Shown one piece after another: positions 2,941-55,099 of a stretch of 64,000 nt of DNA (position 1 is its first letter; each line of letters opens with the position of its first letter). Under the pieces are notes generated by a model that saw nothing but the letters and a program-made list of their open reading frames with translations, was not told where the DNA came from and did no database searches. The position numbers and the translations under genes were made by a program. Origin of the DNA: Bacteroidota bacterium (GTDB lineage: Bacteria; Bacteroidota; Bacteroidia; Cytophagales; Cyclobacteriaceae); NCBI GenBank assembly GCA_027593175.1, contig JAQCJI010000003.1, positions 1 to 64,000 of the forward strand. Direction: 5' to 3'.

Positions 2941-5346
2941 ATGAATAAAACCATTAAAAAAGTTGCCATTTTGGGCTCAGGGGTAATGGGATCTAGAATT
3001 GCCTGTCACTTTGCCAACATTGGCGTGCAGGTACTTTTGCTGGATATTGTGCCCCTTGAACTCAATGAGGAAGAAGAAAAGAAGGGCCTGACGAAGGAAT
3101 CTCCCGCTGTCCGAAATCGCATTGTGACAACAGCCCTTCAAAATACACTTAAAGCCAACCCTTCGGCCATTTACGAAAAATCTAACTCCTCCAGGATTAT
3201 AACAGGGAACTTTGATGATGATCTTCCTAAAATCAAGGATTACGACTGGGTTATTGAAGTAGTGGTTGAGCGCCTAGATATTAAAAAGCTGCTGTTTGAA
3301 AAAGTAGAAAAATACAGAAAGCCTGGAACCCTCATTACCTCTAATACCTCGGGAATTCCGATGCATCTCATGTCTGAAGGCAGATCCGAAGACTTCCAAT
3401 CAAATTTTGTAGGAACTCACTTTTTTAACCCCCCGCGATACCTGAAGCTATTAGAAATTATTCCTGGACCAAAAACCAAACCTGAGCTAGTCGCCTTTTT
3501 GATGGCCTATGGAGATCGGTATTTAGGAAAAGAAACCGTTCTCTGTAAGGATACTCCCGCATTTATTGCGAATAGAATAGGAGTTTATGCCATCATTTCG
3601 GGCATGCACGCCGTTGAGAAAATTGGCTTTGGGGTCTCGGAAGTAGACAAACTTACAGGTCCTGTGATTGGTAGGGCGAAGTCTGCCACTTTCCGTACGA
3701 TGGATGTAGTCGGACTGGACACTACCGTCAATGTGGCCAACAACTTGTATAAGGCTTTGCCCCACGACGAATCCAGAGATAAATTTATCCTTCCCAAAAT
3801 TGTGGAGGTCCTTTACAACAACAAATGGTTTGGAGATAAAACGGGGCAAGGGTATTTCAAAATGACGCGTCATAAGGATGGAACGAAGGAGCTTCAGGAA
3901 TTAGACTTGAAGACTTTCACCTACAAAGAGGTGGAAAAACCTAAATTTAAAGCACTTGAGGCCGCCAAAGAGGTGGAAGACTTAAGAAGCCGCCTTAAGT
4001 TACTGGTAAATTTTGAAGATCGAGTGGGTGAATTTTACCGCAGCTCTTTTTACGATCTATTCAAGTATTGCTCCCATCGTATCCCTGAAATTTCAGATGA
4101 GTTGTACCGTATAGACCAGGCAGTATGTGCTGGTTTTGGTTGGGAGCTTGGTCCTTTCGAAACATGGGATGCCTTGGGCGTAAAAGAAACCATCGTTCGT
4201 ATGGAGGCCGCTGGTGAAAAAGTCGCAACGTGGGTACATGAACTTCTTGCCGCCGGATACGATTCCTTTTATAAGGTTGAAAACGGAAAGCGCAAGTACT
4301 ATGATATTGCTTCAAACTCCTACAAAGACATTCCGGGTTTGGAGGAGTTTATCCTTTTGGACACTCTCAAAGCTGCCGGCAAAAAAGTTTGGGGCAATGC
4401 TGGGGCAACCGTGTACGACTTGGGTGACGAGGTCATTGGCCTTGAGTTCCACACCAAAATGAATGCCATGGGTGCCGAAGTGATTGAGGGCATTAACACG
4501 GCCATCGGCATGGCAGAAAAGTCCTACAAAGGATTAGTTATCGGTAACGAAGGAGGTAATTTCTCTGCTGGAGCAAACTTGGCCATGTTGTTTATGTTTG
4601 CGGGCGATCAGGAGTTTGACGAGATCAACTTAATGATTGCGCAGTTTCAAAACACGATGATGCGCGCCCGCTACTCGACTGTACCAGTGGTGGTAGCCCC
4701 TCATAATATGGCTCTTGGCGGGGGATGTGAATTGTCGCTACACGCCGACCACATTCAGGCACACGCAGAACTATACATGGGTTTGGTGGAAGTCGGGGTA
4801 GGACTTATCCCTGCTGGTGGTGGAACGAAGGAGATGACGCTTCGTTTCTCCAATGGCATCATTGGAGGAGATGTAGAGCTCAACCAGCTGCAGGAGTACT
4901 TTATGAATATTGCTACTGCCAAGGTGTCTACTTCAGCTGAGGAGGCGCGAGGTTTGGGCTACTTGCGCGCTAAAGACGGGATATCGCTCAACAGAAAAAG
5001 ACAGTTGGCAGATGCAAAGTCAAAGGTTGCTTCCCTCTCAGATCTAGGCTATACCCAACCGATTCAACAAAATAACATCAAGGTGTTAGGAAATTCTGCA
5101 CTGGCCTACTTTGAAGCAGGGGTAACAGGAATGATCTATGGGGGCTATATCTCCGAGCACGATGCTAAGATTGCCAAAAAATTAGCCAATGTAATGGCAG
5201 GAGGGAATTTGTCTTCACCCACAGAGGTAACCGAACAGTACTTGCTTGACCTAGAGCGCGAGGCTTTCCTCAGCTTGACAGGGGAGAAAAAGACGCTGGA
5301 AAGAATACATAGTATTTTGTTTAAGGGAAAACCACTTAGAAATTAA
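2941..5346 (+). CDS. 3-hydroxyacyl-CoA dehydrogenase / enoyl-CoA hydratase fusion (FadB-like)
   Basis: N-terminal Rossmann AILGSGVMGSRIACHFANIG; HFFNPPRYLKLLEIIPG; C-terminal crotonase-like ALGGGCELSLHAD. Confidence 0.92.
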   Translation: MNKTIKKVAILGSGVMGSRIACHFANIGVQVLLLDIVPLELNEEEEKKGLTKESPAVRNRIVTTALQNTLKANPSAIYEKSNSSRIITGNFDDDLPKIKDYDWVIEVVVERLDIKKLLFEKVEKYRKPGTLITSNTSGIPMHLMSEGRSEDFQSNFVGTHFFNPPRYLKLLEIIPGPKTKPELVAFLMAYGDRYLGKETVLCKDTPAFIANRIGVYAIISGMHAVEKIGFGVSEVDKLTGPVIGRAKSATFRTMDVVGLDTTVNVANNLYKALPHDESRDKFILPKIVEVLYNNKWFGDKTGQGYFKMTRHKDGTKELQELDLKTFTYKEVEKPKFKALEAAKEVEDLRSRLKLLVNFEDRVGEFYRSSFYDLFKYCSHRIPEISDELYRIDQAVCAGFGWELGPFETWDALGVKETIVRMEAAGEKVATWVHELLAAGYDSFYKVENGKRKYYDIASNSYKDIPGLEEFILLDTLKAAGKKVWGNAGATVYDLGDEVIGLEFHTKMNAMGAEVIEGINTAIGMAEKSYKGLVIGNEGGNFSAGANLAMLFMFAGDQEFDEINLMIAQFQNTMMRARYSTVPVVVAPHNMALGGGCELSLHADHIQAHAELYMGLVEVGVGLIPAGGGTKEMTLRFSNGIIGGDVELNQLQEYFMNIATAKVSTSAEEARGLGYLRAKDGISLNRKRQLADAKSKVASLSDLGYTQPIQQNNIKVLGNSALAYFEAGVTGMIYGGYISEHDAKIAKKLANVMAGGNLSSPTEVTEQYLLDLEREAFLSLTGEKKTLERIHSILFKGKPLRN

Positions 5347-5350
5347 AAAA

Positions 5351-5361
5351 GTATCAAGTAG
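5351..5361 (+). repeat. Left arm of inverted repeat flanking the four-helix-bundle gene
   Basis: GTATCAAGTAG; exact reverse complement of CTACTTGATAC at 5753-5763. Confidence 0.7.
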
Positions 5362-5375
5362 TTAACTAATTACGC

Positions 5376-5729
5376 ATGCATAACTTCAAGGAACTTAAGG
5401 TTTGGCAGAAAGCAGTTGAGTTTGCGGTAAAAACGTATGCACTGACCAAGGCATTCCCTTCTGAAGAAAAATTTGGATTAGTTTCACAAATGAGAAGAGC
5501 GGTAGTTTCCATTCCCTCAAATATTGATGAGGGATGCGGCAAGACGTCTTCCAAATTGTTTGTTAACGCACCCGAAGTAAGTCTTGGTGAAAGTTATGAG
5601 TTGGAAACACAGTTGATTATTGCAGAAAAGACTGGGTTGATTTCTCCAGCGAAGGCAAAAGAAATGGATAAAGACTTATCTGAATTGCAACAGATGATCA
5701 TGGGTCTAAAAACTTCCAGTGCACACTAA
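5376..5729 (+). CDS. Four helix bundle protein (23S rRNA-intervening-sequence / S23 / avd-like family)
   Basis: F(K)ELKVWQKAVEFAVKTY...FGLVSQMRRAVVSIPSNIDEG...LGESYELETQLIIA, typical of the family. Confidence 0.9.
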   Translation: MHNFKELKVWQKAVEFAVKTYALTKAFPSEEKFGLVSQMRRAVVSIPSNIDEGCGKTSSKLFVNAPEVSLGESYELETQLIIAEKTGLISPAKAKEMDKDLSELQQMIMGLKTSSAH

Positions 5730-5752
5730 TTTTACTAAATCAGCAGATGCCC

Positions 5753-5778
5753 CTACTTGATACTAGCGACTTGATACT
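5753..5778 (-). repeat. Right arm of inverted repeat plus second partial copy
   Basis: CTACTTGATACTAGCGACTTGATACT: CTACTTGATAC (5753-5763) inverts the left arm; ACTTGATACT (5769-5778) is the reverse complement of 5350-5359. Confidence 0.7.
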
Positions 5779-5814
5779 CTTCTTCTACTACTCACTAAAA
5801 ACATTCAATACAAA

Positions 5815-6990
5815 ATGGACGCATACATTATAAACGGATATCGATCGGCGGTAGGGAAATCCAAAAAAGGGGGATTTCGTTTTTATCGCCCGGACGATTT
5901 AGCGGCAGATGTGATTAAACATCTGGTGGCAAATACCCTTGGTCTGGAACCCAAAATGGTCGATGACCTCATTGTTGGCAATGCGGTTCCTGAAGCAGAA
6001 CAAGGCATGCAAATGGGTAGAATGATTTCACTTTTGGCCCTGGGCATTGACATTCCGGGATTTGTGATGAACCGATACTGTGGTTCTGGCCTTGAAGCCA
6101 TTGCCCTTGCTGTGGGAAAAATCAAGGCAGGTATGGCCGATTGCATTATTGCGGGAGGCACGGAGTCCATGTCTTTGGTGCCCATGATGGGGTACAAAAC
6201 GGCGCTCAACTGGAAGATTGCCGCTCAATCACCTTCCTACTATCTCAGTATGGGATTGACTGCAGAGGAGCTTGCCAAAGATTACAGCATCACACGAGAG
6301 GAGGCCGATGCTTTTTCTGTTCGGTCTCACGAAAAAGCACTTGCAGCAATAGCGGCGGGGAAGTTTAAAGACGAAATAGTACCCGTGGAGGTAGAAGAAA
6401 CTTACCTAGATGAAAAAGGTAAAAAGAAAACCCGAAAATATGTGGTGGACACGGATGAAGGACCTCGTGCAGGTACCACCATGGAGGCCCTTGCAGCCTT
6501 GAAACCAGCCTTTAGACTTGGCGGGCAGGTGACAGCAGGAAACTCTTCTCAAACCTCCGATGGGGCGGCCTTTGTGGTTGTCATGTCCGAGCGCTTGATG
6601 AAATCCCTTGGCCTAGATCCAATTGCACGAATGATGTCCTATTCTGTGGCAGGGGTTGATCCTCGTATCATGGGTATTGGTCCAAAAGAGGCGGTTCCCA
6701 AGGCGCTTAAGCAGGCGGGACTTGGCCTTCAGGACATTGACCTAATCGAGTTAAATGAGGCCTTTGCCGCTCAGGGTTTGGCCGTGATGAAGTCTTTGGA
6801 TATGAATCCATCTTTGGTCAATGTCAACGGTGGCGCAGTGGCATTGGGACACCCATTGGGATGTACAGGAGCTAAGCTTTCCATACAGCTATTTAATGAA
6901 CTTCGAAGACAAAATAAAAAGTATGGCCTCGTAACGGCTTGCGTTGGTGGAGGCCAAGGAGTGGCGGGGGTATACGAATTGCTTAAATAA
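5815..6990 (+). CDS. Acetyl-CoA C-acyltransferase (thiolase, FadA-like)
   Basis: NRYCGSGLEAIALA; GGTESMSLVPMMG; NVNGGAVALGHPLGCTGAK; VTACVGGGQGVA. Confidence 0.95.
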   Translation: MDAYIINGYRSAVGKSKKGGFRFYRPDDLAADVIKHLVANTLGLEPKMVDDLIVGNAVPEAEQGMQMGRMISLLALGIDIPGFVMNRYCGSGLEAIALAVGKIKAGMADCIIAGGTESMSLVPMMGYKTALNWKIAAQSPSYYLSMGLTAEELAKDYSITREEADAFSVRSHEKALAAIAAGKFKDEIVPVEVEETYLDEKGKKKTRKYVVDTDEGPRAGTTMEALAALKPAFRLGGQVTAGNSSQTSDGAAFVVVMSERLMKSLGLDPIARMMSYSVAGVDPRIMGIGPKEAVPKALKQAGLGLQDIDLIELNEAFAAQGLAVMKSLDMNPSLVNVNGGAVALGHPLGCTGAKLSIQLFNELRRQNKKYGLVTACVGGGQGVAGVYELLK

Positions 6991-54904: not shown

Positions 54905-55080
54905 CGCTAGTATCAAGTGGCAAGACGTGAAAATCTGCATGAAGTACCATGTACAAGGTACCAAGTATGAATTTCTAGAAAGAGAGTAATTCTGCTTTTT
55001 GATTGCCTATTGGTCTTTTTCTTTGGAAACACAACGTTCATTTAGAAAATACTTTGTACTTGGTACTTTGTACCTTGTAC
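54905..55080. repeat. Intergenic inverted-repeat element upstream of radA
   Basis: CGCTAGTATCAAGT (54905-54918) matches the reverse complement of 5755-5768; GTACAAGGTAC (54951-54961) / GTACCTTGTAC (55070-55080) exact inverted pair. Confidence 0.65.
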
Positions 55081-55099
55081 AACCTTAAATTCCTTTCCC

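Follow-up and report, generated by a model that had tools for sequence, protein, structure and literature searches.

What does a gene for an IVP (S23p) four-helix-bundle protein, bracketed by inverted repeats, do between a FadB-like gene and a thiolase gene? The locus lies in the 64,000-nucleotide stretch of Bacteroidota DNA analyzed here (the window), and a preliminary description had taken the gene and its repeats for a candidate mobile cassette. Here, we find that the window repeat is a locus-specific example of the heptamer-array anatomy found generally around IVP genes. We propose, with a probability of about 0.6, that the feature is an intervening sequence (IVS)-type element outside rRNA, in which an IVP gene and its inverted heptamer arrays lie in sense orientation in a fad operon and are looped out and processed by RNase III. 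The elements of the locus are as follows.

2941..5346, + strand: upstream host gene, FadB-like 3-hydroxyacyl-CoA dehydrogenase/enoyl-CoA hydratase (PF02737, PF00725 and PF00378 above cut-off)
5347..5364, + strand: left heptamer arm AAAAGTATCAAGTAGTTA, with the perfect core AGTATCAAGTAG at 5350-5361; longer AAGTATC tandems stand in orthologous left arrays (L016, L086)
5376..5729, + strand: IVP/S23p four-helix-bundle protein gene, 117 aa (PF05635, 1.3e-35; TIGR02436, 2.3e-33; PDB relatives 2GSC and 2RLD)
5753..5764, + strand: right heptamer arm 1, the perfect reverse complement of 5350-5361; its predicted RNA pairing with the left arm has a mean probability of 0.62
5764..5781, + strand: right heptamer arm 2, with ACTTGATACT at 5769-5778 (alternative pairing register; pairing probability, 0.32)
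5815..6990, + strand: downstream host gene, thiolase (FadA-like; PF00108, PF02803)

The layout in the preliminary description holds. Domain matches confirm both neighbors as FadB-like and thiolase genes, and profile searches place the enclosed gene well inside the IVP family (PF05635, 122.3 bits against a cut-off of 33.8; TIGR02436, 114.7 against 24). The repeats reported on either side of the ORF form a perfect 12-nt pair (AGTATCAAGTAG at 5350-5361 and CTACTTGATACT at 5753-5764; 12 of 12 positions matched), and the second right copy, ACTTGATACT, is likewise present, 14 nt, i.e., two heptamers, beyond right arm 1. A longer arm pair, 5347-5364 with 5764-5781, is 83% complementary. In the predicted folding of the window RNA, the left arm pairs with either right arm at the probabilities listed above, and the terminal repeats are thus able to form a stem around the ORF. 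The motif ACTTGATAC has four copies in the window, where 0.27 would be expected, and three of them border the IVP gene. The window arms are short (∼2 units on the left and ∼4 on the right) and the period-7 array detector gives no call on them; they are recognizable as heptamers mainly because AAGTATC tandems occupy the orthologous sites in relatives (L016, L086, and L110). An Rfam scan of the window returned two tRNAs only, and the IVP locus, between fadB and fadA, is outside any 23S rRNA gene. As had been stated, neither a transposase nor a reverse transcriptase was identified next to the IVP gene. Elsewhere in the window (54905-55086), a gene-less inverted heptamer array, AGTATCAAG..GTACCATGTACAAGGTACCAAGTA / TACTTTGTACTTGGTACTTTGTACCTTGTAC, lies between polA-like and radA-like genes and has the same arm type without an IVP gene.

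What the preliminary description overlooked is the heptamer-array nature of the repeats, in which they match the arrays of 23S rRNA intervening sequences. This anatomy was followed in 261 nonredundant IVP genes with their flanks, comprising 2 from the source genome, 41 from fad regions, 128 others from Algoriphagus, and 90 from Bacteroidota phylum-wide. Left and right flanks of the same gene match as inverted copies with scores of 14.0 to 15.2 (13.8 in the phylum-wide set), compared to 8.2 to 8.5 for swapped flanks and ∼8 for shuffled ones. Depending on the group, 48 to 69% of IVP genes score at least 13, as do 2 to 6% of swapped flanks; the remaining 31 to 52% of IVP genes miss this threshold, and ∼13% have an array on neither flank. 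Autocorrelation of the flanks peaks at lags 7, 14, and 21 only, on both sides. With the detector tuned per period, period-7 arrays occupy the left flank in 76% and the right flank in 73% of IVP genes, while other periods reach 3 to 25% and non-IVP intergenic windows of related loci carry period-7 arrays in 17% of cases. The heptamer itself is locus specific (AAGTATC, AAGAGCC, GAGAAGC, AACGTTC, ATTAGGG, TTGGTTG, GAGCTAT, and others) and varies even within one genome; despite this variation, the left and right arrays of each locus mostly agree as inverted copies. Accordingly, array composition compared between the left flank and the reverse-complemented right flank gives a cosine of 0.38 for the same gene, 0.07 for other genes, and 0.10 for the same-strand comparison. 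For AAGNNNC arrays, the reversed-pattern control was unusable because the reversed pattern is itself another dialect. The arrays are placed a median of 28 nt before the IVP start codon and 3 nt after the stop codon, and IVP genes mostly lie between codirectional genes, in sense orientation at 65 of 75 such sites (p=5e-11). IVP genes were present in 73 of 76 Algoriphagus genomes and in 233 of the 297 Bacteroidota genomes searched.

The source genome (2.49 Mb, 117 contigs, 83.5% completeness; closest named relatives Algoriphagus and other Cyclobacteriaceae) contains one further IVP gene, which has an in-frame stop and lies between an odhB/pdhC-like gene and lpd. It is framed by inverted repeats of another sequence, GTACCAAGTACC... 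/ ...TACTTTGTACC, of the GTACCAA type. Because this gene and other sites carry different heptamers, a common terminal sequence, for which the preliminary description had proposed to look among the IVP genes of this genome, was rejected. Genome-wide, ACTTGATACT occurs 12 times compared to once for the reversed control, and the dispersed copies are mostly intergenic, often within 7-nt-periodic stretches. Across Algoriphagus genomes, GTACNNNGTACNNNGTAC arrays range from 0 to 183 copies (0 to 1 for the reversed control); several small MAGs have 60 to 183 copies with few IVP genes, and in these genomes the arrays therefore multiply independently of the gene. The idea that IVP number drives array number was rejected, as there is no overall correlation (rho −0.15); a value of 0.46 is reached only with the small freshwater MAGs left out, which is a post hoc choice.

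The IVP protein is under purifying selection, with a median dN/dS of 0.09 over 78 pairs, and internal stops interrupt 16 of the 261 genes; thus, the protein is generally maintained. This contrasts with S23p of Coxiella, which its authors argue is not made in vivo (PMC4990558). The window IVP departs twice from 90%-conserved columns (A51D and L66P), and these substitutions may reflect early decay or tolerated change. The solved relatives 2GSC and 2RLD each have five chains in the PDB, and an IVP-family protein of Xanthomonas is described as a homopentamer (PMC4990558). Isoelectric points are mixed (median 8.0; window copy 6.7), so that charge gives no evident sign of general RNA binding.

The same anatomy recurs in other phyla. 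Plasmid-borne IVP genes from cyanobacteria and one spirochaete have the lag-7 signal and inverted matching, with 15 of 24 scoring at least 13 compared to 9.8% of swaps. A Nostoc edaphicum plasmid gene has GGGAGTA units and another Nostoc gene (C052) has GGGAACA units; some plasmid loci have 8-nt units, as do the arms of a Gemmatimonadota plasmid IVP gene, and the arrays in Pseudanabaena are direct rather than inverted. On cyanobacterial plasmids, IVP genes were also seen within CRISPR operons, between cas6 and cas4 (Pseudanabaena, Anabaena 90) and between cas10 and cmr3 (Picosynechococcus; L322, L331, and L346 for the three). On N. edaphicum plasmid pNe_5 (L321), an IVP gene with strong inverted arrays has ribonucleotide reductase genes on either side and is antisense to both, which breaks the sense-orientation rule. 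No IVP was found in phages among 50,697 records. In Azospirillum lipoferum, an IVP gene is located within a 23S rRNA gene (Rfam LSU hit of 2529 bits); GGACGGA/TGACAGA heptamers flank it, and the predicted duplex reaches −75.8 kcal/mol. In the Coxiella 23S IVS, RNase III cuts the terminal stem, and the S23p gene is preceded by GACAGAT heptamers in tandem (PMC4990558). On the basis of these two cases, intergenic elements and rRNA IVSs share both protein and anatomy.

Because IVP genes have these boundaries on most of the cyanobacterial plasmids tested and in the Azospirillum 23S IVS as well, we interpret the window feature as being of the IVS type. At orthologous sites, the predicted duplexes of a locus's own left and right arrays reach −28.7, compared to −22.1 for swaps between diverged species, although only 23 of 30 are more stable than the swap mean. 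We suggest that the arrays would pair within the polycistronic mRNA, with a choice of several heptamer registers, thereby looping out the IVP message. By analogy with rRNA IVSs, RNase III would then cut the array stem, freeing the IVP message and parting the fadB from the fadA transcripts. IVP, which forms pentamers in the PDB and has Avd relatives, may act on its own stem or on related RNA. Over evolution, the element would mostly stay in place, and its loss or replacement would involve the entire unit.

The history of the sites bears directly on the earlier idea of a mobile cassette. According to this explanation, the heptamer arrays are terminal repeats recognized at the DNA or cDNA level, and IVP is the mobility factor of a non-autonomous element or a reverse transcriptase or transposase acts in trans. 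The presence/absence comparison proposed in the preliminary description indeed found both states at the fadB-fadA junction: 30 of 73 sequences have the IVP gene, and the FadB tree needs 18 changes, 11 of them forced by supported branches. The culturable species Algoriphagus aquaeductus and A. boritolerans are among those with the element. The suggestion that the repeats delimit the gene as a unit is also borne out, as whole cassettes, arrays with gene, differ as units among close relatives. For instance, L017 and L018 have FadB proteins that are 96.6% identical and IVPs that are only 58.5% identical, and their arrays match within (15.5 and 12.0) and not across loci (5.5 and 7.0); in general, close relatives with different complete cassettes have FadB ∼97% identical, IVP 58 to 60%, and gene ends at the junction 84 to 93%. 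Such replacement could have occurred either via exchange of flanking DNA or by insertion, and loss together with homologous exchange of flanking genes can also yield presence and absence. Relatedness of IVP to Avd of diversity-generating retroelements (DGRs) and the existence of inverted arrays without a gene, which resemble MITEs, are likewise consistent with mobility. By contrast, the two IVP copies in one genome have different termini, and copies are bound to slots. IVP sites recur across species (fadB-fadA, fadA-acyl-CoA dehydrogenase, odhB-lpd, trpE-trpG, sufB-sufC, and others, with slot names from our own reading of the flanking protein ends), and for 146 of 163 IVP genes the nearest IVP in the tree comes from the same genomic slot. 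Comparison of tree and slot for these 163 genes revealed no recent copy between slots; apparent close cross-slot pairs were mostly one site split by contig ends or by site assignment, and none was a clear jump. Polymorphism was thus seen at the fadB-fadA site, while new sites between close relatives were not seen in the sample. The target-site duplication looked for at the window element was also not found, with abutting direct repeats of 0 to 2 nt for the boundaries tried. We, therefore, regard the mobile cassette as unlikely, while retaining from it the polymorphic site and the unitary cassette. Some gene-less fadB-fadA junctions retain the array hairpin (Cognataquiflexum rubidum and Aquiflexum TKW24L vs. 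C. nitidum and C. aquatile). In Belliella species (L040, L048, and L050), this gap holds a different repeat, AACCCTGAAAGGGTTAAAC..CCCCGGGTCGCAACCCGGGG, with heptamer-like remnants on either side, and in Algoriphagus faecimaris and Anditalea andensis (L034 and L055) it holds decaying, internally deleted IVP genes with the arrays still there.

Fixed sense orientation, conserved slots, the tight placement of the arrays, and the low dN/dS would also be expected if IVP were an ordinary, domesticated operon protein and the arrays a cis-regulatory binding site or an mRNA stabilizer or attenuator, without excision. We consider this improbable: the host operons are unrelated (fad, odhB-lpd, sufB-sufC, trpE-trpG, and others), the gene is repeatedly lost at one site, and a matching anatomy is found within 23S rRNA, a host without any protein-coding operon that could be regulated. 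Least probable, and already disfavored, is that the heptamers are generic simple repeats born by slippage that gather in long intergenic gaps in which the IVP gene merely sits. Heptamers are the commonest class of 5- to 11-nt repeats in many bacteria according to Mrazek 2007, as cited in PMC4679880, and up to 183 GTAC arrays are present in genomes that have few IVP genes, array counts not following IVP number overall; yet the excess of period-7 arrays on IVP flanks over other intergenic windows (73 to 76% vs. 17%) and a left/right match that exists only between inverted partners of one locus argue against a by-product.

Our findings bring together two puzzling features of bacterial genomes, common IVP genes and dispersed heptamer repeats, which occur together both in mRNA operons and in rRNA. 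This association leads to a testable shared role in structured RNA processing within operons, and it gives the long-standing IVS question a clear experimental handle, as each arm, the gene, and RNase III can be varied separately. More speculatively, and with more doubt than confidence, IVP genes with heptamer arms might form a single class of RNA-level elements, ancient and spread across phyla, which colonized both mRNA operons and rRNA operons. The heptamer repeats scattered through bacterial genomes (cyanobacterial STRRs, Xanthomonas GGGAATC, and Algoriphagus GTAC arrays) might then be gene-less derivatives, and IVP might work on heptamer stems and keep left and right arrays matched. Published work reports heptamer repeats from cyanobacteria, Xanthomonas, Beggiatoaceae, and Bacteroidetes, as well as rRNA IVSs (PMC4692102, PMC4679880, and PMC4990558 among the sources). 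A full-text literature search, with subscription journals and preprints largely outside its scope, found no paper tying heptamer arrays to IVP genes outside rRNA; the novelty of this link is, therefore, provisional.

Among known systems, DGRs share with the window element a related four-helix-bundle protein, Avd (DivGenRetAVD, 6.7e-5; phrog_3206, 1.1e-8). The window IVP scores 23.2 bits against the Avd model, far below the cut-off of 80; the ORFs next to its gene are fad genes, and neither a reverse transcriptase nor a template or variable repeat was found there. Similar to REP sequences with RAYT transposases and to MITEs, the elements described here are dispersed palindromic intergenic repeats, some copies of which surround a small gene; they differ in having no transposase in or beside the element, a locus-specific 7-nt array rather than a shared terminus, and slot-bound copies. 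Cyanobacterial STRRs, the GGGAATC repeats of Xanthomonas and GGGGATT repeats of Nostoc (PMC4692102), and TAACTGA repeats (PMC4679880) are also largely intergenic 7-nt tandem arrays; those in PMC4692102 lie mostly between codirectional ORFs, are transcribed, and form inverted pairs in Xanthomonas. In contrast to the arrays around IVP genes, most of these arrays enclose no gene, and a link to IVP genes was not found in PMC4692102 or PMC4679880. The 23S rRNA IVSs of Coxiella burnetii, Leptospira, and A. lipoferum differ in their host, which here is a protein-coding operon, in that the IVP gene here is under strong purifying selection, and in that excision has been demonstrated for rRNA IVSs while we infer it here. 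They have the same protein family, stem-forming inverted arms around the gene, sense orientation to the host transcript, and heptamer tandems, GACAGAT in Coxiella (PMC4990558) and of the GGACGGA type in Azospirillum.
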